Shown piece after piece: positions 1-11,310 of a DNA stretch of 38,067 nucleotides. The notes under the pieces are model-generated. The model worked only from the letters and a program-made list of their open reading frames with translations. It had not been told where the DNA came from and ran no database searches. This stretch comes from Nitrospirota bacterium (lineage in GTDB: Bacteria > Nitrospirota > Thermodesulfovibrionia > UBA6902), in contig JACQXG010000014.1 in assembly GCA_016208905.1 (NCBI GenBank), positions 1-38,067 on the forward strand. Direction: 5' to 3'. Positions within the stretch are counted from its first letter, which is position 1; every line of letters begins with the position of its first letter. Both the position numbers and the translations under genes were made by a program.

Positions 1-2
1 AC

Positions 3-620
3 GAATATCGCTATGCACCCGGTCGGGCAGAGGCAAATTCATTAAACACTCTTCTTGATGCATATGAACTTGCTGAAGACAGAAGGTATCTGACAAGGGC
101 TGAAAGTATAATCAAGAAGTTCATAAGCCCATCAGATGACATAGATAAATTAGATCAGCAGGAGATGGAACTACGGTGGTTTTACCTTATCTTTCTTCAA
201 GCCCTCTGTAAATATCTCGACATGAGAGACAATCTTGGTGAAAGAGATAAAATGTTCGAATATGCCAGAGAAAGTATGATCCATCATGTCAAGTGGATGC
301 TGGAGAATGAAAGACCGTATAAGGAGATCTTTCATAGAGTTGAAATACCCAGCTCCACGTGGTGTGCGCATGATATTCGCAAAAGTGTTATCTTCGATTA
401 CGCATATAAATATACTGAGGGGGCACTGAAGCAGTCGTGCAAGACAAAAGCGGAATTCTTCTATAATAAATCCATTGAGGATATTCTGTCTTTTAAAGAT
501 GAATCCAGGACGTTTGTCCGTCCGCTGGCGCTTCTGATGAATTTTGGTGTAATGCATAATTATTTTAATGGCTTGCCTGATGACGCTAAGCAGACTGAGT
601 ATGGCCATGTAACTAAATAA
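3..620 (+). CDS. Unrecognised helical protein, 3' part only (5' end outside window)
   Basis: The ORF track starts this at an internal Met (165), but the frame is open from base 3, so the gene enters from the left edge and only its last 205 residues are visible. The sequence is almost entirely helix-forming, with the start RYAPGRAEA, then blocks such as SIIKKFI and a WCAHDIRKS segment. The pattern of paired helices with conserved aromatic and charged turns resembles alpha/alpha-toroid carbohydrate enzymes (epimerase or lyase type), but I see no catalytic motif that would fix the family. It lies upstream of methyltransferase, glycosyltransferase and exosortase genes, so a role in exopolysaccharide synthesis or modification is inferred from position only. 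Confidence 0.65.
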   Translation, partial: EYRYAPGRAEANSLNTLLDAYELAEDRRYLTRAESIIKKFISPSDDIDKLDQQEMELRWFYLIFLQALCKYLDMRDNLGERDKMFEYARESMIHHVKWMLENERPYKEIFHRVEIPSSTWCAHDIRKSVIFDYAYKYTEGALKQSCKTKAEFFYNKSIEDILSFKDESRTFVRPLALLMNFGVMHNYFNGLPDDAKQTEYGHVTK

Positions 621-686
621 AGAGCAGAGGTTCCGATGTTATATAATCGGAAATGTCTATTGATGACTGCCTGATCAACAAGCTAA

Positions 687-1439
687 ATGACAGAAACAAA
701 GAAAAGGATAGAGAGTGAGTCGGAATTTCAAAACGCAAGAATAGAAAAGGGGGGAAGTCCAAGAAAATTCCAACACCTTATCCGTGACGAGTACCCATTT
801 CTGCTGAAGGTATTGGGAGATGTGAAGGATAAGAAAATCCTTACTATGGGATGTTCTACCGGGGGAGTGACACCCTTTGCAAGGCAAGGGGCTTGGAATC
901 TTGGAGTTGATATATCATCACTTGCAATAAAAGAGCTTTTAAATGCAATCAAAGAAGAAAATTTGAAGGATTATGCTCAGGTAGGAATAATGGATTGCGA
1001 AAATCTTGCGTTAACTGACAACTATTTTGATGTTGTACTGTTTTTGGGCGTATTGCATCATCTCGATATAGAGAAGGCTATGATGGAGTCTTATCGGGTT
1101 TTGAAATTTGGCGGTAAAATATACATGACCGAACCACTTGGTCTGCACCCACTTGTAAATCTATATAGGTTGTTAACGCCCGGGGCAAGAACCAGTTTCG
1201 AACATCCTCTAAGACCGAAGGACTTTAAAATTATTAAAAAATATTTCAGGGTTGATTTAATTAAAGGTTTTTGCCTTACATCTATATTTTCTCTTATACC
1301 TTTGTATATCTTTAAAAGCGAAAGGCTGTACGAAGTGTTCAGAAAATTATTCATAAAACTGGATGATTACCTTTATGATAAATTTCCATTTCTTTGCTAT
1401 TGCTCATGGTCTGCTGTGATTGTACTGAATAAAGAGTAG
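687..1439 (+). CDS. Class I SAM-dependent methyltransferase (Methyltransf_11-like)
   Basis: This 250-residue protein has the layout of a small-molecule methyltransferase with a Rossmann core. Motif I is ILTMGCSTGG at residues 51-60 (a degenerate form of the E/DxGxGxG SAM loop), the acidic strand-2 end is GVDISS at 73-78, motif II/III is DCENLAL followed by FDVVLFLGVLHHL at about 114-126, and the post-motif strand is LKFGGKIYMTEP. The second half (about 150-250) is hydrophobic and basic, possibly membrane-associated. No strong Shine-Dalgarno precedes the ATG. It sits 20 nt ahead of a glycosyltransferase, so it probably methylates a sugar or lipid-linked intermediate of the polymer; the substrate cannot be read from the sequence. 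Family assignment is fairly safe, substrate is open. Confidence 0.8.
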   Translation: MTETKKRIESESEFQNARIEKGGSPRKFQHLIRDEYPFLLKVLGDVKDKKILTMGCSTGGVTPFARQGAWNLGVDISSLAIKELLNAIKEENLKDYAQVGIMDCENLALTDNYFDVVLFLGVLHHLDIEKAMMESYRVLKFGGKIYMTEPLGLHPLVNLYRLLTPGARTSFEHPLRPKDFKIIKKYFRVDLIKGFCLTSIFSLIPLYIFKSERLYEVFRKLFIKLDDYLYDKFPFLCYCSWSAVIVLNKE

Positions 1440-1459
1440 ATTTCTGAAGGATTAGAAAA

Positions 1460-2407
1460 ATGACAGATGATTCTGTATTAATTTCCTTTATTATGCCGGC
1501 ACTGAATGAAGAAGAATGCATAGGTACATCTATAAGGGCTATAAAGTCTTATTCACAAGGATACAAATGTGAAATCATCGTAGTCGATAACGGATCAACT
1601 GACAGGACTGCTGAGATTGTGCGTTCGGAACATGTCACCCTGCTTCAAGCGAGAAACACCACAATTGCATATGCTAGGAATAAAGGTGTTGAGGAATCGA
1701 ATGGCCGGATACTCATCTTCTTGGATGCTGATGTTATTGTAACCGCAAGCTGGGGAGATTAATTAGAGAGTACCTTGAAGTTGTTATTAACCGATCCCTT
1801 AATTATAACCGGTTCTCGTTGTGCTGTTCCGAATGAAGACAATTGGCTTTTGAGGTATTGGTTTGCCAGAATGCAACACGAAATGCCTAATTATATAAAT
1901 TCTGGACATTTGATAACAACCAGGGAATTATTTGATAGAATCAATGGATTTAATCCAATGTTTAATACTGCCGAGGATTACGATTTTTGCATCAGGGCTA
2001 AAGACATTGGCGCCAGGATAATAAACAATTTACGGCTGAAAGTTATTCATACAGGATATCCATTATCAATAAAGGATTTTATTGTCCGTGAAAAATGGCA
2101 TGGAACACAGGATTTTCATAGCTTATGGAACATCATTCATTCTAAAGTAGCAATGCTTTCTTTGGTAAATATCTCTTTGGCTGTTGCTCTATTAATTATG
2201 ACAATCATTACGGGAAATATTTTCTATATGCTATGTTATTTTTGTCTGATGTATGCGGTCTCATGTATGTCAACTCTTATAAAGTTTGGCTTTGGAAACC
2301 CAGTTTTGCTTTTAAATACCACTTTAATTTTCTTTTTTTATTATTCAGGTAGATCTCTTGCTTTCATAGATAGGGTTAAACTTGGGTTGACTCATATTCA
2401 ACACTGA
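1460..2407 (+). pseudogene. Family 2 glycosyltransferase with one in-frame TAA
   Basis: The track shows two ORFs (1460-1762 and 1775-2407), but both are in the same frame and are separated only by a TAA at 1760-1762 and four codons (LEST). Read through, they make one protein of about 315 codons. The N-terminal half carries the GT-A signatures PALNEEE (13-19), VVDNGSTDRT (41-50) and the metal-binding FLDAD (87-91). The second half carries the acceptor/base motif TAEDYDFC, then hydrophobic segments near the C-terminus. The stop falls inside the catalytic domain, between the DxD and ED motifs, so neither half should be active alone. The second ORF begins at a TTG with no good ribosome site. Either the gene is dead by a single nonsense change, the stop is suppressed, or it is a sequencing error. 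Confidence 0.85.
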
Positions 2408-2553
2408 TGTCAAAACTATAACAGTTATCGCTCATCTGTTGTTTTACATGAACATTATATATAGGCGTGTTTTTTACAATGAAAATTAGGAATATTTTCT
2501 TTGGTTCTAAAATGGATAGTCCAATTTGATATTGCTGGCATTACACTTGCAAT

Positions 2554-2573
2554 GCAGTGATTTGAATCACTGC
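2554..2573. promoter_or_regulatory. Palindromic operator candidate, CRP/FNR-like
   Basis: A perfect 9-bp inverted repeat with a 2-bp centre, GCAGTGATTTGAATCACTGC, lies 76 bp upstream of the probable start of the secreted protein gene. Its core GTGAT-N4-ATCAC has the spacing of CRP/FNR-superfamily sites (FNR is TTGAT-N4-ATCAA, CRP is TGTGA-N6-TCACA). The same 14-nt core, differing at one position, recurs at 10453-10466 upstream of another exported protein. The regulator is not in this window. Operator function is inferred. Confidence 0.45.
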
Positions 2574-2648
2574 TAATGAAAACAATCTGTATTATCTTAA
2601 TATTAGATGTTTATGAATGACTTAAAAATTGTTAGGAGGAAGAAGGAT

Positions 2649-3716
2649 ATGAAGTTTATATATATTTTATTTGCAATTACTCTGTTAGTGTTTCTGATAC
2701 CATTTGATTGTATGAGTGGTGTCATCTTTGAGGATGATTTTAATGGGTTTACTTCGGGGTGGACTCCAATCGAAAAATGTTGTGCACACCGTGTTTACGG
2801 TAGCCCCAGTGGAAGAGGAGAGCCTACTGGCTGGACCGGGTACATTTGGGAAGAATCATCTACCGAAAGTGATTTAAGAATTGTAACCGGCGAAGGACGC
2901 GGTGGTACGCCAGCCTTTAGGGTACAGCCTAATGTTTTAACAGGGGTTAGCGGACAAATGGGTTTAACCAAATGGCTTGGGCCAACTGGATATAATGAGA
3001 TTTATATCAGATATTTTCTTAAATATAGTGATTCAAGATTATGGGGAAATGGACAGGGTGGCTCATATTCTTATCAGAAATTAAATCGGGTATGGCAAAA
3101 CATAACCTCGACAAATTTACAAAACATTCCGACAGGTGTCATGAGCAATGAGCACGGTAAGGGATGGATGTTATTTGGAATTGCTGATGATGATTATAGT
3201 ACATTCGATCCTTTCGCCAGAATAACACTTGCTACAAATAGCACAGATGATTCTTTAGGCCAAGGTATCAGCCGATTTACTTATCAGTGGAATAGTGCCA
3301 ATACTGTCTCATTTGTTGAAAACCATTTTGGAGCTATTAACACAAATGGTTCATGGGCTACCACACAGGGTTGGCACTGTATAGAAATTCATCTTAAACT
3401 TGCTTCAGCATGGGGACAGGATGATGGTATTTATGAACTTTGGATAGACGGGATTAAACAAAATGCCCCTACTTACACTTTGCCTCAGTATGGGTATGCC
3501 GGCGGTTTAACTAAAATGCCGACAGCAAAGATAGGAACGGGGATTAATTATGTAACGTTTTCAGATAACTTGGACCAGAAGTCAGGTCTTCCAAAATGGT
3601 CATATTGGATAGATGATGTTGTAATTAGTACTTCCTATATCGGCCCTAACTATGTCATTGGCGGTGGCTCTGCTCCTGACACAATGCCGCCTGCAGCGCC
3701 AACATCTTTAAGATAG
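2649..3716 (+). CDS. Secreted jelly-roll-like protein, possibly polysaccharide-binding or lyase-like
   Basis: I place the start at the ATG at 2649 and not at 2607: it follows AGGAGG with good spacing and gives a normal signal peptide (basic MK, then a hydrophobic stretch ending near FDCMSG). The 355-residue product is exported. The mature part is rich in beta strand, aromatic and glycine residues, and contains a WHCIEIHLKLA segment followed by DGIYELWIDGIKQ. That pairing is typical of concanavalin-like jelly rolls such as LamG domains and heparin-lyase-type folds. I see no certain catalytic residues. The protein stops at DTMPPAAPTSLR, a sequence that usually opens a fibronectin type III domain, so it may have lost a C-terminal module. 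A palindromic operator candidate lies upstream. Its place among glycosyltransferase and sulfotransferase genes suggests it binds or trims the exported polymer. Confidence 0.6.
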   Translation: MKFIYILFAITLLVFLIPFDCMSGVIFEDDFNGFTSGWTPIEKCCAHRVYGSPSGRGEPTGWTGYIWEESSTESDLRIVTGEGRGGTPAFRVQPNVLTGVSGQMGLTKWLGPTGYNEIYIRYFLKYSDSRLWGNGQGGSYSYQKLNRVWQNITSTNLQNIPTGVMSNEHGKGWMLFGIADDDYSTFDPFARITLATNSTDDSLGQGISRFTYQWNSANTVSFVENHFGAINTNGSWATTQGWHCIEIHLKLASAWGQDDGIYELWIDGIKQNAPTYTLPQYGYAGGLTKMPTAKIGTGINYVTFSDNLDQKSGLPKWSYWIDDVVISTSYIGPNYVIGGGSAPDTMPPAAPTSLR

Positions 3717-3926
3717 TAATTTTTTATATTCAGTGAATAGTTAACTCCTTATGAAAAAGCAAGTATGTTCTTGAACTCTCAAGATATAATCAAATTACTC
3801 TTGACGTATTAGTGCCTTCATATTTTCTTTAATCGACAGAAATCCTCGAAGCTCTGCTGCTGGGTAGTTTATTTTAACTCTGATTTTCAAATTAATTTGG
3901 TTTAAACATTATGATAATTAAATGAA

Positions 3927-4844
3927 ATGATAAAAAATTCACTATTTATTTTAGGATGCGAAAGGTCTGGAACAACAATGCTTGCCGGTTTACTAAAAAA
4001 CACGCCTTATGGTGAGCCTATAGAGACCCACTTTATTACCAAATACTATAGAAAGTTGAATGACTATGGAAACCTTGAAAATAAAGATAATTTTACACGC
4101 CTCTTAAAAGATTTTTTAAGTGAAAGGCCTGTTATGCAATGGAAGCTAAATATTGGCATTGATGATTTCTATAGAGAATTTGATGACTTTAGCTATCAAA
4201 ATATAATCAATAAGATATGCATAAAACAGGCGGAGAAAAAAGGATATAAATTATGGGGAGACAAGACCCCTCATTATATTCTGGACATAGATGTACTCTA
4301 TAAATTATTCCCCACGGCCAAATACATTTATATTGTCCGTGACGGAAGGGATGTAGCGCTTTCCCTTTTAAACGTGGAATGGGAGCCATATAACATCCTG
4401 ACATGTGCTGAACGCTGGAAGAGATATAACAGACAGAATGATGTCCTGGACAAGTTGAAGAGCAGTAACCAGCTTTACTCTTTACGATATGAAGATCTGC
4501 TTGATAACGCTGAACGAATTGTTCCAGATGTATATAAGTTTTTAGATGAAGAATACAATGAAAACAAAATGAATGAATTAATAGGCAGAATAAGAAAAGG
4601 CAATTATGGCAAATGGAAAAGTAAAATGAATACACGCCAGATAAAGTTATTTGAAAGCATCGCTGCAAACACACTGAAGAGATTCGGTTATGAAACTACT
4701 TATGAAGAATCAGAAATTAGCGGGCTTACTAAAGCAGTATATAATTCCCATGAATTATTAATGAGGACAAAGTTTTTATTCAAAATCAATATCGTAGATG
4801 GAATTAAAATAAAATTCTTCGGCAAAGAGCCCTTTGCGGATTAA
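3927..4844 (+). CDS. PAPS-dependent sulfotransferase
   Basis: The 305-residue protein transfers sulfate from 3'-phosphoadenylyl sulfate to an acceptor. The 5'-phosphosulfate loop is at the very N-terminus, GCERSGTTML (10-19), and the 3'-phosphate motif is IVRDGRDVALSLL (136-148). Both match the Sulfotransfer_1/Sulfotransfer_3 families. No signal peptide or membrane segment is evident, so it acts in the cytoplasm. The neighbouring cysC gene (9272) makes its donor PAPS, and the surrounding genes make and export a polysaccharide, so the acceptor is probably a sugar in that polymer or its lipid-linked precursor. A second ATG-like region just upstream gives no longer credible frame. Family confidence is high; acceptor is inferred. 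Confidence 0.87.
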   Translation: MIKNSLFILGCERSGTTMLAGLLKNTPYGEPIETHFITKYYRKLNDYGNLENKDNFTRLLKDFLSERPVMQWKLNIGIDDFYREFDDFSYQNIINKICIKQAEKKGYKLWGDKTPHYILDIDVLYKLFPTAKYIYIVRDGRDVALSLLNVEWEPYNILTCAERWKRYNRQNDVLDKLKSSNQLYSLRYEDLLDNAERIVPDVYKFLDEEYNENKMNELIGRIRKGNYGKWKSKMNTRQIKLFESIAANTLKRFGYETTYEESEISGLTKAVYNSHELLMRTKFLFKINIVDGIKIKFFGKEPFAD

Positions 4845-4862
4845 TTCAAAACCTTCTTCCTT

Positions 4863-7655
4863 ATGCGAGATACTTCCAATCGAGATTATTTAATATTCAT
4901 CAAGAAAATTATTACAATCGTTATTCTTTTTTTACTATCTGCTTTCCCTGATCATGCCAATGCTGCTACTGCAAAGTTTTATGCAACTAAAGATGTATGG
5001 ATATCGGCATATCCCGGAGAAGAAAATTACAATATGGGCGCATCTAGTAAATTGAAGCTCAAAGGTATACAGGAAATGGCAATCATGGATTTTGATTTAT
5101 CTTCTTTGAAGGGTAAAAAAGTTGATAACGCCAGGTTGTATCTTTGTAATGCTGGCGATAATAAATTAAGGAAAATCGGACTTTCAACAGTTTCGTCTCC
5201 ATGGATTGAAGGGAAATCCAGGGGGTATTTCGTAGATATATTTGGAAAGGGGGCCACATTTAATTACTCAAGTTATAAGAGCCAAAGATGGGCAGGAGAA
5301 GGCTCTGATTTAACTGATGTGACCATGGGGAATGGGAATACATGGCAGCACCATAGTGAGATACAAAATGAGAGTGACTTATGGTGGTCTGTGGATATTG
5401 CTCCTGAATTAATTCAGGCCTTGATAACAAAAAAGTCTTATGGACTTCTGATTATGGATGAGTCAGGGCAGACATTTGCCAATAATTATGTGTTTTCCAG
5501 AGAATCAGAATATTCACCTTATATTCTGATTAATTTTACAGAGGCTGAAAAGCCGAAGCCGAATAAACTCGATATTGAATTATTTCCCTCAGTAAAGAAT
5601 GCACATATGGAATATGGCGCGGTCGTTTTGAGGATTCCAATTAAAGAAGATATTTTTGCTTTTGATATGTTTATTAATAATGAGGAGGTCCCTATCTGGA
5701 GGGTCCCTAAACCACAATCAAAAGATACGGTGCAGGAGATAATAATAGACTGGCTGCTACCTCAGGAAAAGATAGATATACAGATAGTGGCTGTAGATAA
5801 GCTAGGGCAAAGATCTGAACCTGCGATTGTCAGAGGATATGCATCAAAGTCATTACACCGAATAGCTTTGCCGGACTACCTCCCTGTATCTTCTCCTGCT
5901 AATGAGAGAATGAAAAAGGTGGCATCAAATAATTTCAGAGTATGGGTGCTACCTGATATAACAAAGGTCGATCCTGTTTCTGGCCGGGTGCTTTCGGAAA
6001 TAAATACTGAAGGATTTGACAAAAAAAATCCGATATGGTCAGAAGAAAAAAGGGGAATCACGCTGTTAGGAATAAAAGGTGAAATTATTGGGTTTCAAAT
6101 ATGTATAGAAGCAGCAGATCGGATTGATGATGAATTGGAATTTAATTTAATTCCGTTGAAAAGCAGTACAGGTAGCAAGATATCTGCTGACAGATTTTCA
6201 TTATTTCAAATTCATTATTTGAAAGTGAAAGATAAATGGTATCCGGAGCTGGCAATCCCTATGCGTGACGGGAAAATAGTTTTTGCAACTGAAAGAAGAC
6301 AGATAGGAAATCAAAAGAACCAGATAATATACGTTGATCTTTCCATTCCTTCCGAAATAGAAGCAGGATCCTATCATGGAGATATTGTAATTTCAAGAAG
6401 TGGTATTAAAGAAGAATCTCTTCATATTAATCTTAATGTAGCTAATGTAGTAATGCCCCGGACACTGACATTCGTTCCTGAGCTGAACATTTATGGAGGT
6501 CCTGGAAAAGCAGGGTCGGAGAAATTTATGAATGCCCATCGCATAGCCCATGAACATAGGACGGTTATTAATAGAGTTCCCTATTCGCAGGATGGAAGGG
6601 TTCATACAGACATGATTCCGGAAATATCCTTCTCGGAGAACGGTCAAATCAAGATTGACTGGACGGATTATGACAAGAGGCTTGGGCCTCTGTTTGACGG
6701 CTCAGCTTTTATTAAAGGAAATAGGAAAGGGATTCCTGTAGAAAAGTTTTATCTCCCATTTTTTGAGAATTGGCCGTCTGAATTAGCCTCTCATTATAAA
6801 TATAAGTTTGAAAGTAAAAAGACACAGGAGATAATCTCAAGGCACGCATTGGAATCGCCGATATTGAGTGAAGCGATAACATTTGACTATAAAGAGAAAT
6901 TTGTTCGTATAATCAAGGAATTTGGAAAACATTTTGAGGAGAAGGGATGGAGTCAAACCGAATTTCAGTTCTATCTTAATAATAAATGGGAATGGGAGAT
7001 GGCCTCGTCATGGTGGAACCTGGATGAACCTATGTCTTATGATGACTGGATGGCCTTGAAGTTTTACGGCGTATTATTTCAGCAGGCAATTGGTACAAAG
7101 CCGGCTCAATTTATTTTCAGGGCGGACATCTCGAGACAGCGATGGCAGCATGACTGGTTAAATGGAATATTGAACAGGATGTATGTGCAAAGTGAAGATT
7201 TTTTCAGATATCCGGCTCGTGCACGGCAATTGAAAGAGAAAGGACAAATTAGTTACTCTGTTTATGGCTCACTCAACGACATAGATACCTCTAATCAACA
7301 GACTGTATTGTGGTGCATGAGAGCTTATTTAGAAGGCGCTGACGGAGTATTACCGTGGCAGAGTTTGGGAGGACCTAAGGCTTTTTCAATACCTGACAGG
7401 AATGCTCTTATTGTTGATGCCGGAAAAGGATTGAACATTGATTGGGTTGTCAGTTTGCGTGTCAAGGCATTGCGCAGGGGACAGCAAAATGTTGAGTTGT
7501 TGGCCTTGCTGGAGAAAAAATATGGTTATAATAGAGAGCAGATGCGTGACTTGTTTTATAGATATTTTAATTTTGTTGATGTTAACGATGTTGATAAACA
7601 AATAAATACTGATAAAATGGAAAATTTCAGAAAAATACTGATTGAGATGCTGTAA
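4863..7655 (+). CDS. Large secreted DNRLRE plus DUF4091 (GH123-like) protein
   Basis: This 930-residue exported protein starts with a signal peptide (hydrophobic IITIVILFLLSAFP, then DHANAATA). Residues about 35-225 look like a DNRLRE/CBM96-type domain: paired strands with TKDVWISAYPGEENYNMG and a conserved MDFDLSSL. A beta-rich middle section (about 230-540) follows. The C-terminal half resembles DUF4091/GH123 catalytic regions, with FFENWP, WWNLDEP (Asp721-Glu722) and RYPARARQLKEKG. GH123 beta-N-acetylgalactosaminidases use an adjacent Asp-Glu pair in substrate-assisted hydrolysis, and the LDEP pair fits that position. It probably acts outside the cytoplasmic membrane on the polymer made by this locus, as a trimming or release enzyme. 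The gene follows the sulfotransferase by 18 nt. Domain calls are from pattern memory and need a profile search. Confidence 0.7.
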   Translation: MRDTSNRDYLIFIKKIITIVILFLLSAFPDHANAATAKFYATKDVWISAYPGEENYNMGASSKLKLKGIQEMAIMDFDLSSLKGKKVDNARLYLCNAGDNKLRKIGLSTVSSPWIEGKSRGYFVDIFGKGATFNYSSYKSQRWAGEGSDLTDVTMGNGNTWQHHSEIQNESDLWWSVDIAPELIQALITKKSYGLLIMDESGQTFANNYVFSRESEYSPYILINFTEAEKPKPNKLDIELFPSVKNAHMEYGAVVLRIPIKEDIFAFDMFINNEEVPIWRVPKPQSKDTVQEIIIDWLLPQEKIDIQIVAVDKLGQRSEPAIVRGYASKSLHRIALPDYLPVSSPANERMKKVASNNFRVWVLPDITKVDPVSGRVLSEINTEGFDKKNPIWSEEKRGITLLGIKGEIIGFQICIEAADRIDDELEFNLIPLKSSTGSKISADRFSLFQIHYLKVKDKWYPELAIPMRDGKIVFATERRQIGNQKNQIIYVDLSIPSEIEAGSYHGDIVISRSGIKEESLHINLNVANVVMPRTLTFVPELNIYGGPGKAGSEKFMNAHRIAHEHRTVINRVPYSQDGRVHTDMIPEISFSENGQIKIDWTDYDKRLGPLFDGSAFIKGNRKGIPVEKFYLPFFENWPSELASHYKYKFESKKTQEIISRHALESPILSEAITFDYKEKFVRIIKEFGKHFEEKGWSQTEFQFYLNNKWEWEMASSWWNLDEPMSYDDWMALKFYGVLFQQAIGTKPAQFIFRADISRQRWQHDWLNGILNRMYVQSEDFFRYPARARQLKEKGQISYSVYGSLNDIDTSNQQTVLWCMRAYLEGADGVLPWQSLGGPKAFSIPDRNALIVDAGKGLNIDWVVSLRVKALRRGQQNVELLALLEKKYGYNREQMRDLFYRYFNFVDVNDVDKQINTDKMENFRKILIEML

Positions 7656-7697
7656 ATGTAATAATGACATGCAGTACCTATTTTTTACTGGATTAAT

Positions 7698-8534
7698 GTG
7701 AAAAGACAAAATAATGTAACTATCTTTCTGGTCGTTTTATTTATAGGTGCCTTCGGGTTTTTGTACTGGAAGTCTATCTATGACATGGTTTGGGATTGGT
7801 ATAATGATCCTAATTACTCTCACGGATTTCTTATCCCTTTTATATCAGGCTATTTTTTATGGCAAAGAAAAGATGATTTGAAGTCGTCTGATTTTGTACC
7901 GTCGAATATGGGGCTGATAATATTAATTTGTGGACTGATTTTTTATCTTATCGGGAATATTGCCGGAGAATTATTTACAATGAAGATTTCGATGCTTGTT
8001 GTCCTCGGAGGCGCAATAATATTTATATGTGGGATTGGATTTTTCAAAATGATAATGTTTCCATTCTTATATTTGATTTTTATGATTCCTTTACCTTACA
8101 TCCTATATGATTCTGTAGCGTTTCCATTAAAAATATTTGTTTCTAAATTTTCAGTCGATTTTTTATCACAGATTGGTGTTCTCGTCTTAAGAGAGGGCAA
8201 TATTATCCATCTTGCTGATATCTCACTTGAAGTAGCCGATGCTTGCAGCGGAATAAGGTCTATTATATCGCTTCTTGCGCTGTCGACTGCCCTTGCCTAT
8301 CTGACTCAGGAGGGATGGCTAAAAAGGGGGGCACTTATTGTACTGGCGGTGCCAATTGCCGTGATCGTCAATTCAATCAGGGTTATAGGGACCGGCATTC
8401 TGGCAGACAAATACGGATCTGAGGTCGCACAGGGCTTTTTTCATGAGTTTGCAGGGCTCGCGATTTTCGGGATTGCTATAGTTATGTTGATTATCTCGGC
8501 AATTTTGTTAAGAAAGATAGGTAAAAAGAGTTAA
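7698..8534 (+). CDS. xrt: Exosortase, membrane transpeptidase/protease
   Basis: The 278-residue protein has about eight hydrophobic segments and the exosortase catalytic triad in order: Cys183 in VADACSGIRS, Arg228 in VNSIRVIG and His249 in FFHEFAG. The early NYSHGFLIPFIS block (39-50) is also a family hallmark. Exosortases recognise C-terminal PEP-CTERM-like tails, cut them and pass the protein to the surface; their genes commonly sit in exopolysaccharide loci, as here. The start is a GTG inside an ATGTGA string. EpsI follows after 94 nt. No protein in the window ends in a PEP-CTERM-type tail, so its substrates must be encoded elsewhere or this enzyme serves polymer export directly. The subtype letter cannot be assigned by eye. 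Confidence 0.93.
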   Translation: MKRQNNVTIFLVVLFIGAFGFLYWKSIYDMVWDWYNDPNYSHGFLIPFISGYFLWQRKDDLKSSDFVPSNMGLIILICGLIFYLIGNIAGELFTMKISMLVVLGGAIIFICGIGFFKMIMFPFLYLIFMIPLPYILYDSVAFPLKIFVSKFSVDFLSQIGVLVLREGNIIHLADISLEVADACSGIRSIISLLALSTALAYLTQEGWLKRGALIVLAVPIAVIVNSIRVIGTGILADKYGSEVAQGFFHEFAGLAIFGIAIVMLIISAILLRKIGKKS

Positions 8535-8612
8535 GGAGTCAGGGAGTTTGAAGCGTAAGAAAAGTTGAGAGTAATTTAATTGACTCCATAGCTCCACAAC
8601 TCCGTTACTCCT
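8534..8612. repeat. Imperfect inverted repeat in the exosortase-epsI gap
   Basis: AGGAGTCAGGGAGTT (8534-8548) is matched in inverted form by AACTCCGTTACTCCT (8598-8612) with 13 of 15 positions paired. TGACTCC at 8582-8588 offers an alternative partner. The arms start in the exosortase stop codon and fill most of the 94-nt gap. There is no T-run after the right arm, so a simple terminator is unlikely. It may be an mRNA hairpin tuning epsI, or a member of the short intergenic repeats seen elsewhere in the window. Confidence 0.55.
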
Positions 8613-8628
8613 AAACTAGAAAGAAATT

Positions 8629-9255
8629 ATGAACAAAAGATTACTCTTAATTTCAATAATAATATTATCACTTGCGCTCTATCTTCACGTAGTTCCGTTT
8701 CACGAGAGTATACCGCTTAAGAAAGCATTTACTGATTTTCCACATAATTGGAAGGGGTGGAAGAGCGATGCTTATTATTTTGATGCTGCTGTTCTTGATA
8801 AACTGCGTGTAAATGAATATATCATGAGGGAATATAAGAGAGGAGATGACAGATTTACTCTTTATATCGGTTATTACGGGACGCAAAAGGAAGGCGCTCA
8901 AATCCATTCGCCAAAACATTGTTTACCCGGAGCGGGCTGGTTTAAGTTGCTTGAGAGAAAAAGTAGTATGAACATTGACGAACTGGGTAAAATAAATTTC
9001 ATCGAAGCCTTATATAAAAAAGGTAATGAAAGGGAAATCTTTATCTATTGGTATAAGATGAAAAATGCTTATATTACGAATGAATATGTTTTGAAATTAT
9101 ATATGATATTAAATTCATTAAAATACAGGAGGAACGATGCAGCATTTATAAGGTTTTCAGCGCCGGTTACTACAAGCGAAGATGTTACTATTCGGATGAC
9201 TGAGAATGCTATGAAAGATTTCCTTCCGTTACTAAAAGATTTTTTACCTGAATGA
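8629..9255 (+). CDS. epsI: EpsI family exosortase-associated protein
   Basis: The 208-residue protein has an N-terminal signal-anchor (residues about 4-22), then a compact domain with the conserved EpsI block IHSPKHCLPGAGW (92-104). In many exosortase loci this domain is either fused to the exosortase C-terminus or encoded directly after it; here it is a separate gene just downstream, which supports both calls. The protein should sit in the cytoplasmic membrane with its domain facing outward. The conserved Cys-His pair in the PKHCLPG block suggests a catalytic or metal-binding role, but the biochemistry of EpsI is not established. The ATG has only a weak GAAAG ribosome site. Confidence 0.88.
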   Translation: MNKRLLLISIIILSLALYLHVVPFHESIPLKKAFTDFPHNWKGWKSDAYYFDAAVLDKLRVNEYIMREYKRGDDRFTLYIGYYGTQKEGAQIHSPKHCLPGAGWFKLLERKSSMNIDELGKINFIEALYKKGNEREIFIYWYKMKNAYITNEYVLKLYMILNSLKYRRNDAAFIRFSAPVTTSEDVTIRMTENAMKDFLPLLKDFLPE

Positions 9256-9271
9256 AATAGGAGTTAAAAAA

Positions 9272-9877
9272 ATGGATAAAAAAAATGTGATCTGGCATGA
9301 CGGATATGTTGAGAGGCAGGAAAGAAACCGATATTTTAATCATAAGAGCGGCCTCTTATTGCTGACAGGACTGTCCGCCTCCGGAAAGTCTACTATTGCG
9401 CATTATATCGAAAGAGAATTATTTAATCAAAACGCTCATGTTTATGTCCTGGACGGTGATAACATCAGGCACGGGCTGAACAGCAATTTAAGTTTCAGCA
9501 GGGAGGATAGGAGAGAGAACCTTCGACGAATTGTTGAGGTTTCTAAACTCTTTGTAGATGCGGGTATGCTTGTATTAGCAGCGTTTATATTTCCTTACAG
9601 GGAAGACAGGGAGTATATGAGGAAACGTTTTGAGGGGGACAATTTTCTGGAAATATATGTTAAATGTCCTATTGAAATTTGTGAAATGCGTGACCCTAAA
9701 GGACAGTATAAAAAGGCACGGGCTGGAATTATAAAGGGTTATACAGGGATTGATTCTCCATATGATGAACCCAAAAAGCCGGATTTAATCATTGATACGG
9801 AGAAGACAGATATTAAGAATGCAGGGCAGATGGTTATTCAATTGCTTAATGACAGGAAATACCTGTCTTTGGATTAA
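9272..9877 (+). CDS. cysC: Adenylylsulfate (APS) kinase
   Basis: The 201-residue cytoplasmic enzyme phosphorylates APS to PAPS with ATP. It has the P-loop GLSASGKST (33-41), the DGDNIRHGLN substrate block (61-70), the FSREDRRENLRRI helix and the late KGYTGIDSPYD segment, all in APS-kinase order and at full family length. It stands alone, without ATP sulfurylase or PAPS reductase genes beside it. The nearest PAPS consumer is the sulfotransferase in the same gene run. That argues it feeds polymer sulfation and not sulfate assimilation. A GGAG ribosome site precedes the ATG, 16 nt after epsI. It ends the exopolysaccharide run. Confidence 0.95.
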   Translation: MDKKNVIWHDGYVERQERNRYFNHKSGLLLLTGLSASGKSTIAHYIERELFNQNAHVYVLDGDNIRHGLNSNLSFSREDRRENLRRIVEVSKLFVDAGMLVLAAFIFPYREDREYMRKRFEGDNFLEIYVKCPIEICEMRDPKGQYKKARAGIIKGYTGIDSPYDEPKKPDLIIDTEKTDIKNAGQMVIQLLNDRKYLSLD

Positions 9878-10001
9878 GATATTGAGGAAATTTATCACGG
9901 TATTAATGGATTAGTCTAGATTTGATTAATAATCACTTATTGTCATAAATCGGACAACAATGTTGTTATTGGGTTAGTAAAAAAACTTTCTGGCAGGGGA
10001 T

Positions 10002-10418
10002 CTACCCGATTGTTGTACAAAATTCGCTTGAATAACCGCTTTCATTGCCCGAATTATCATAAGCGGTTACAGAAAAACACCATGGCCCATGTGATAAATT
10101 GTTGATTACGGCACCTGTAAAATTACCGACATCAACTGTCTGAGTGTAGTTATTTGAGGACACACCATAATGTACTTTATATCCAGCAAGATCAGTTAGT
10201 GGAGATCCGTCGCTATTTGTTGTTGATGCATCCCACGATAAGGTTACAGAGTCAACTATAGTAACACTTGACCCACCGGTGTTGTCCGCAGTAGATTTAC
10301 TTCCTTCATTTCCGTTGTTTCCGCTTCCTCCGCTACCACACCCCAAAAGTGTTAGTAAGAAAAAAAGTGCTGTGCAAGCTTGTAATTTAAATATGTTTAT
10401 TAATTTTATTCTCCCCAC
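10002..10418 (-). CDS. Small lipoprotein with one fibronectin type III domain
   Basis: The 138-residue product has a hydrophobic signal sequence ending in a lipobox (TLLGC), so it should be lipid-anchored in the envelope. A flexible Gly/Ser/Asn linker follows (GSGGSGNNGNEG and so on). The rest is a single FN3 domain: VTLSWDAST, a YKVHYGVSSNNYT strand and FSVTAYDNSGNESGYS. Such lipoproteins usually bind polymers or partner proteins at the surface. The frame opens at a GTG; the GGGGAG just after it could instead serve as a ribosome site for a start further in, so the exact N-terminus is uncertain. A CRP/FNR-like palindrome lies about 35 bp upstream. It is transcribed towards the exopolysaccharide genes. 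Confidence 0.75.
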   Translation of the reverse strand: MGRIKLINIFKLQACTALFFLLTLLGCGSGGSGNNGNEGSKSTADNTGGSSVTIVDSVTLSWDASTTNSDGSPLTDLAGYKVHYGVSSNNYTQTVDVGNFTGAVINNLSHGPWCFSVTAYDNSGNESGYSSEFCTTIG

Positions 10419-10730
10419 GATTTAATATTAATAGAAATTTCTAATGATAAATGTGATGTGAATCACGAAATTTAATTTATTATAACTTCCTTGATCTAAA
10501 AGTTTTATCAAGTAGTATGGCATGGGAGAGGAGAACAATATTTTTGCGTTATTTATAATCACTGTAATCGAAGCATACAGTTTAATAAAGAGAGTTTTGA
10601 GAGCATTCGCATGGTAAGGAATAATAATATAATGAAATAATTAATATTATTTTTAAACCCCGCTGGAATAACCATATTCATTTGGGAAGTTAAAGTTACA
10701 ATCATAGATTTATTTTGCCTGATATCCCTC
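10419..10730. other. 312-bp non-coding gap between two minus-strand lipoprotein genes
   Basis: AT-rich and without a credible ORF. On the minus strand it holds a TATAAT (bases 10479-10484) that could be the -10 box for the FN3 lipoprotein, though no good -35 hexamer is spaced with it. The operator-like palindrome at 10452-10467 lies between that box and the gene. I see no other structure. Confidence 0.5.
10452..10467. promoter_or_regulatory. Second copy of the CRP/FNR-like palindrome
   Basis: TGTGATGTGAATCACG fits TGTGA-N6-TCAC and shares the core GTGATKTGAATCAC with the site at 2554-2573 at all but one position. It lies just downstream of a minus-strand TATAAT and about 35 bp before the FN3 lipoprotein, a position expected to repress. 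The cognate regulator is not in the window. Confidence 0.45.
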
Positions 10731-11123
10731 CTATTTAAGAGCTGGAAAACCGCTTTTTAGAAACCATCTCTTATGATCTCTATCAAATTCCCAGAACTGT
10801 TTGTCAATGAGGGTTTTTTCAATCATATCATTCGTGTTGTAGTATTTGATCTCCACGGTCTGGTATGCCTGCAGCTCGTTTTCTGTAATTCTACTTTTCA
10901 ATAATTCATAAGAGGTTACTTTGATTTCCTGAAGATTATCGAAATCCAGTGTTTTCTGATCTGTCCCGTCAACTTTTATAAAATCATTTGCAAGCTCGTA
11001 ATATCCCCACCGTATGGCATTTTCGTACTTATAAGTTGTCGTTTCAAACAGCTCCAGCCTTTTTTCTAAAGAAGCGCATCCTGCAAACAATAATAAACAG
11101 AAATGTAAAATATATTTAGCCAT
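10731..11123 (-). CDS. Small lipoprotein of unknown function
   Basis: This 130-residue protein has a short signal peptide (YILHFCLLLFAGC) with a clear lipobox LFAGC, so the mature chain begins at Cys15. The rest is a compact mixed alpha/beta domain with strands such as YQTVEIKYYNT and a C-terminal KRWFLKSGFPAL. The arrangement (helix with FETTTYKYENAIRWGYYELA, then four or five strands) is like small NTF2-like or DUF4440-type lipoproteins found in many diderms, but I cannot name a family. It is transcribed away from def, with the AT-rich gap 11124-11310 holding both divergent promoters. Confidence 0.7.
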   Translation of the reverse strand: MAKYILHFCLLLFAGCASLEKRLELFETTTYKYENAIRWGYYELANDFIKVDGTDQKTLDFDNLQEIKVTSYELLKSRITENELQAYQTVEIKYYNTNDMIEKTLIDKQFWEFDRDHKRWFLKSGFPALK

Positions 11124-11310
11124 TTTTTCCCAAAAAAATAATTTACCCTGTTATCTCTAATTTGCGTATTTTGAAATCTGGCATCTGTTAGATAAGAATT
11201 ATATATAAAAACAATTTTTTTTACAGCAATTATGAAACAATTATATTTTTTATATTTTGTTTTACTATGTGTAACTTGTTATTTTCATTGAAAAGGGGTT
11301 AAATTAAACC

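Follow-up and report, generated by a model that had tools for sequence, protein, structure and literature searches.

In an uncultured bacterium from groundwater, a member of a sulfate-breathing lineage, a run of five genes probably serves to sulfate a polysaccharide exported into an exosortase/PEP-CTERM matrix, drawing on respiratory APS. The run (3927-9877) is co-directed, with intergenic gaps of 16-94 bp, and comprises genes for a sulfotransferase, a CBM96/GH123-N protein, an exosortase, EpsI and an APS kinase. It lies in the window, the whole stretch of DNA analysed (1-38067), which is the entire contig C5 of an assembly (G000) of 2.19 Mb in 107 contigs that is 86% complete. An earlier note had claimed these five genes; all of them lie where they were placed and score above curated cut-offs (Table 1). 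The locus is real, non-random and functionally coherent.

Table 1. Features of the window.
Feature	Coordinates	Strand	Evidence
Large gene, 3' end, cut by contig edge	3..620	+	Frame open to contig start
SAM-dependent methyltransferase	687..1439	+	PF08241 57.5 bits
GT2-type glycosyltransferase, one in-frame stop 1760-1762	1460..2407	+	Two ORFs, same frame
Sigma-54 -24/-12 type site TGGCATTACACTTGCA, putative PrsR-type promoter	2536..2551	+	<=1 mismatch
Secreted protein, no assigned family	2607..3716	+	No Pfam match
PAPS-dependent sulfotransferase (PF13469)	3927..4844	+	Sulfotransfer_3 94.2 bits vs cut-off 27
Secreted CBM96 + GH123 N-terminal-domain protein	4863..7655	+	930 aa, hydrophobic N-terminal leader
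Exosortase, XrtA class by NCBIfam cut-off	7698..8534	+	TIGR02602 207.5 bits; TIGR03109 217 vs 208
EpsI, exosortase-associated	8629..9255	+	TIGR02914 116 bits (EpsI_fam cut-off 42.8); PF11984 158.5 bits
APS kinase CysC (PAPS-making)	9272..9877	+	TIGR00455 apsK 246 bits vs cut-off 138.7

The sulfotransferase keeps two PAPS-binding motifs, GCxRSGTT (5'-PSB loop) and IxRDGRDxALS (3'-PB), which are invariant across four homologues, as is the Glu/His pair E33/H35. A sulfotransferase fold is seen in its predicted structure, a model of low confidence (pLDDT 61). Motifs, profile and fold searches settle the enzyme class and leave the acceptor undecided, and gene context favours a glycan. Of the sulfated extracellular polymer or glycoprotein proposed earlier, the sulfated product stands as the best-supported reading, with protein sulfation as a rival to polysaccharide sulfation. 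In that rival, which we consider rather unlikely, the enzyme would modify tyrosine residues of a protein destined for export, such as one of PEP-CTERM or 2607 type, in a RaxST-like manner coupled to exosortase sorting. Tyrosylprotein sulfotransferases are indeed the best Foldseek matches of the model (E 6e-8), TPST1 is matched in the profile search at 50 bits, and a protein-sorting enzyme and a secreted protein gene are co-encoded. However, PF13469 is a general family, CurM tops the profile search and the model confidence is low. RaxST and the tyrosylprotein sulfotransferases share the PAPS-dependent fold and motifs with the present enzyme, but its context is that of glycan synthesis: glycosyltransferase/Wzx/Wzy clusters, with a sulfatase gene in one carrier. 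It is quite improbable that the acceptor is a small metabolite or lipid and the placement in the locus coincidental. The structural likeness to CurM and olefin-synthase sulfotransferase domains would fit such an acceptor, and sulfation of Nod factors and mycobacterial glycolipids is established in bacteria and offers precedents; nevertheless, the surroundings in the carriers are glycan-related, and neither the block nor the carrier clusters showed polyketide or lipid synthesis genes.

Sulfation of a polysaccharide agrees with the setting of the block in relatives, where the earlier note had proposed to look for the same gene set. Of the 61 genomes examined from the class, G000 has the combination, and so do three that belong to a different genus in its family (G024, G036 and G028), where it lies in Wzx/Wzy exopolysaccharide clusters. 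The named relatives of the carriers are Thermodesulfovibrionia/Nitrospirae (Nitrospirota) MAGs from groundwater and mines (L089-L091). The gene order in G024 (L069) is sulfotransferase, GH123-like, exosortase, EpsI and CysC. The same set is present in G036 (L040/L056), with a divergent sulfotransferase (31% identical) about 10 kb upstream, and in G028 (L055/L085) the GH123-like, exosortase and EpsI genes share a cluster with a cysC-sulfotransferase pair some 8 kb away. Identities of block proteins across these carriers range from 31 to 76%: relative to the window, 63-66% for the GH123-like protein, 73, 63 and 31% for the sulfotransferase homologues and 73-76% for the block-type CysC, which is also present on its own in G017. 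The carrier clusters also contain Wzx, Wzy_C, GT4, AsnB, carbamoyltransferase, PcRGLX-like and nucleotide-pyrophosphatase-type genes, and the sulfatase gene belongs to the cluster of G036.

The gene run in the window probably starts upstream of the sulfotransferase, earlier than first stated, since the 2607-3716 gene and the sigma-54 site precede it. This gene likely starts at ATG 2649, behind the ribosome-binding AGGAGG at 2635-2640; divergent homologues (27-33% identity) occupy the same place in two relatives, and its AF2 model is too poor to use (pLDDT 31). At the contig edge, the C-terminus of the truncated product, FVRPLALLMNFGVMHNYF, matches L056:4231-6672 and L084:5418-7943 when compared by eye, and is similar to that of a protein of 813-841 aa encoded in the clusters of the relatives, one copy of which has PcRGLX-like domains. 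The contig begins inside the cluster, and the polysaccharide genes of G000 are mostly out of view. Positions 1-11200 have a GC content of 36.9% vs 44.3% in the remainder of the contig, which carries housekeeping genes (deformylase, fmt-like, mreB, mreC, PBP2, rodA-type, Mla, dxr); the low-GC stretch fits an acquired island joined to them. Based on this low GC and on the lack of canonical cysC in all four congeners, one of them 100% complete, the block is probably accessory and acquired.

Uninterrupted proteins of 316-329 aa similar to the glycosyltransferase are encoded in L056 and L085, and its in-frame stop is either a pseudogene mark or an assembly consensus error. Together with the lack of a PEP-CTERM gene in view, this stop could point to decay or inactivity of the block in G000. 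This is very doubtful, because all five genes of the block are intact and their motifs invariant, and the stop may be a metagenome consensus error.

The C-terminal part of the large secreted protein of the block contains an invariant LDEP motif. The label GH123-like given to it earlier holds in part: CBM96 and the GH123 N-terminal domain pass their cut-offs, the latter at 28.7 vs 27 bits, but the catalytic domain PF13320 was not recognised in the profile search. Near distant GH123-like relatives (Planctomycetota, Acidobacteria and others), the block profiles find no exosortase or sulfation genes.

CysC retains the P-loop GLSASGKST, LDGDNIRHGLN and KKARAGIIKGYTGIDSPY, and its nearest solved structure is the APS kinase domain of human PAPSS1; the usual Ser of FISPY is replaced by Phe (FIFPY) in four of the five block-type kinases. 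It is the sole canonical APS kinase of G000. Another cysC-like gene on contig C22 (L013:5053-5571) was considered as a second APS kinase and rejected, being devoid of DGDN and ENLRR; judging by its sequence, the product probably phosphorylates something other than APS. It adjoins a YjbQ-like-looking gene, and a similar gene occurs in most genomes of the family.

The use of PAPS can be judged from the sulfate genes present, the absences stated for G000 resting on family profile searches. No CysH-type PAPS reductase was found in G000, whose only PF01507 protein is CysD/FAD-synthase-like, and the only PF01507 protein above cut-off in the carriers G024, G028 and G036 is of the same non-CysH type. 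CysD exceeded its cut-off in none of the 61 genomes and CysN in none of the G000 proteins, where the CysN candidates were dismissed with a SelB-like GTPase as best match; no CysDN was found in the carriers. Since CysH was not found, the simplest explanation for the PAPS is a role as donor of sulfate. ATP sulfurylase (PF01747), which the earlier note had suggested seeking elsewhere, was not found in 86%-complete G000 and is present in 49 of the 61 genomes, including all four congeners; its absence is therefore most likely an assembly gap. The order sat, aprB, aprA, qmoA, qmoB, qmoC was read in carriers G024 and G036, congener G002 and G017 (L104, L105, L108 and L109), the apr-qmo genes being assigned by reading the sequence, without a model search, where sat flanks were read. 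From this we infer the direction of APS flow, in which APS from the respiratory Sat would be the natural substrate of the block CysC.

It is unlikely that CysC serves assimilation, and scarcely credible that it does so with its place in the locus incidental: it is indeed the only canonical APS kinase of G000, as the earlier note had considered, but neither a CysH-type match nor CysDN was found in G000, G024, G028 or G036, the four congeners do without canonical CysC, and cysC is linked to sulfotransferase genes. The observation that no assimilation genes accompany cysC was borne out, with no further sulfate gene among the scanned window genes.

This linkage was quantified for 31 unfused canonical cysC genes and 43 non-canonical cysC-like paralogues in the 61 genomes, with random placement as expectation. 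A PF13469 sulfotransferase lies within 3 kb of 12 of the 31 canonical genes (~0.19 expected) and within 6 kb of 14 (~0.37 expected), vs none of the 43 paralogues, and an exosortase lies within 3 kb of 3 of the 31 (0.07 expected) and within 12 kb of 8 (0.27 expected), all counts coming from related genomes and hence from non-independent events. The clustering of cysC with sulfotransferases is not due to chance. Polysaccharide-like loci with no sulfotransferase nearby also hold several canonical cysC genes, so cysC by itself is no proof of sulfation. The description of such sulfation as uncommon in bacteria was overstated, given PF13469 sulfotransferases in 32 of the 61 genomes and published sulfated capsule clusters with PAPS genes (PMC11641403; PMC11766843). 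A second sulfation pair of the lineage was also seen: in other genomes of the family and in unrelated surroundings, a compact sulfotransferase (232-250 aa, GLPRSGTS) lies directly beside another type of cysC (L015, L016, L017, L018 and L022).

The exosortase reaches 256 bits with Exosortase_EpsH (cut-off 25.7); the XrtW and XrtD models outscore XrtA on it, yet stay below their own cut-offs. PEP-CTERM proteins are the typical substrates of exosortases. None is encoded within the 38-kb window, and PEP-CTERM genes adjoin the block or its exosortase in L069, L040, L055, L049 and L050. The regulators PrsK (538 bits) and PrsR (618 bits), both over cut-off, are encoded on contig C10 of G000. In the whole window, a single sigma-54 -24/-12 match has no more than one mismatch: TGGCATTACACTTGCA, which lies 113 bp before the likely start codon at 2649. 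Only 0.1 occurrences of the relaxed motif TGGCAY-N5-TTGCW are expected in the window; a scan at two mismatches gave no excess over chance. The same motif precedes PEP-CTERM genes by 85-86 bp in L040 (two genes), L049 and L069, where these genes sit beside cysC or an exosortase. A second exosortase and EpsI-like pair, with no sulfation genes, is present in G000 (L058:4725-6278, contig C101). The congeners have one exosortase each, of similar score, so the window exosortase may have arrived as an extra copy with the block.

Taken together, gene identities, motifs, co-conservation, the promoter motif, the failure to find CysH or CysDN and the Sat operon of relatives point to a sulfated matrix. 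The block would be an accessory cassette for sulfation and sorting, belonging to the exosortase/PEP-CTERM exopolysaccharide system of a Thermodesulfovibrionia lineage with a sulfate-respiration operon. APS would be supplied by the respiratory ATP sulfurylase Sat (sat-aprBA-qmoABC operon of relatives) and phosphorylated to PAPS by CysC, and the sulfotransferase would then act in the cytosol and sulfate a sugar within the repeat unit of the exopolysaccharide, presumably prior to Wzx/Wzy export. Exosortase and EpsI would process PEP-CTERM proteins destined for the same matrix, the secreted GH123-N/CBM96 and 2607 proteins may trim or bind the polymer, and the PrsK/PrsR two-component system may turn the set on via sigma-54 promoters. 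Counted against this reading are the lack of a PEP-CTERM gene in the window and of Sat in G000, the tyrosine and polyketide-chain sulfotransferases as nearest folds of a pLDDT 61 model, the G036 sulfotransferase that is 31% identical and ~10 kb from the exosortase, and the cysC loci lacking a sulfotransferase. As a tentative extension, for which we claim low confidence, dissimilatory sulfate reducers might tap respiratory APS for a sulfated matrix, with an exosortase cassette that has its own APS kinase coupling sulfation to PEP-CTERM sorting in one PrsK/PrsR sigma-54 regulon, and a PAPS-reductase-superfamily protein flanked by PrsK and PrsR may be its dedicated nucleotide/sulfate sensor or activator.

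Each part is of a known kind, and the combination appears undescribed: no description of an exosortase/PEP-CTERM system combined with sulfation was found in the open-access literature, which leaves out most subscription papers. PAPS genes and sulfotransferases in a polysaccharide cluster are a hallmark of sulfated polysaccharide synthesis (PMC11641403), and the capsule clusters of Vibrio sp. KMM 8419 (PMC11641403) and Cobetia marina KMM 1449 (PMC11766843) likewise hold both. Those clusters have cysD, cysN and cysC, for local APS, and ABC export, whereas the present run has cysC alone and includes an exosortase/EpsI pair, and its surroundings in relatives are of the Wzx/Wzy type. Sulfotransferases also lie within the exopolysaccharide cluster xss for synechan in Synechocystis 6803 (PMC8205485), which is cyanobacterial and for which cysC and PAPS are unmentioned in the main text. 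The PEP-CTERM/EpsH (XrtA) system (PMC1569441) shares the exosortase, EpsI, PrsK, PrsR, the sigma-54 motif before PEP-CTERM genes and the polysaccharide genes, but no sulfation genes were described for it, whereas they stand in the same run here. Pontiella, anaerobes with glycosaminoglycan-like exopolymers whose sulfation was measured, also has PF13469 sulfotransferases (PMC7356697); these are fermentative Kiritimatiellae, and PEP-CTERM and PAPS synthesis are unmentioned. Sulfated exopolymers have been measured in other bacteria (PMC8205485; PMC7356697).

Extracellular sulfated glycoconjugates have been measured in granular sludges, with producers and pathways remaining unclear (PMC10483923). 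The locus names candidate producers of such compounds in the anaerobic subsurface and gives the exosortase system a specific chemical partner. It also suggests that APS is an intermediate for cell-surface material as well in lineages with a sulfate-respiration operon, and a sulfated matrix in Nitrospirota becomes directly testable.

The protein flanked by PrsK (L012:1229-3292) and PrsR (L012:5713-7116) on contig C10 of G000 is a 274-aa member of the PAPS-reductase superfamily (CysD/CysH/FAD-synthase-like; L012:3530-4354). It was considered as an APS source on account of this position and of its location about 8 kb from the block cysC in G036. It was rejected: the CysD model gives 50 vs 396.6 bits and no CysN was found, and it is also disfavoured by FAD synthase as nearest solved structure and by its occurrence in genomes with no canonical cysC. 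No link of this protein to exosortases was found in the literature. The gene has this PrsK-PrsR position in about a dozen inspected genomes, and across most of the family's genomes the protein is 62-89% identical. It is often accompanied by a type I phosphodiesterase-like gene and sometimes comes right after exosortase-EpsI-PrsK (L059 and L061).
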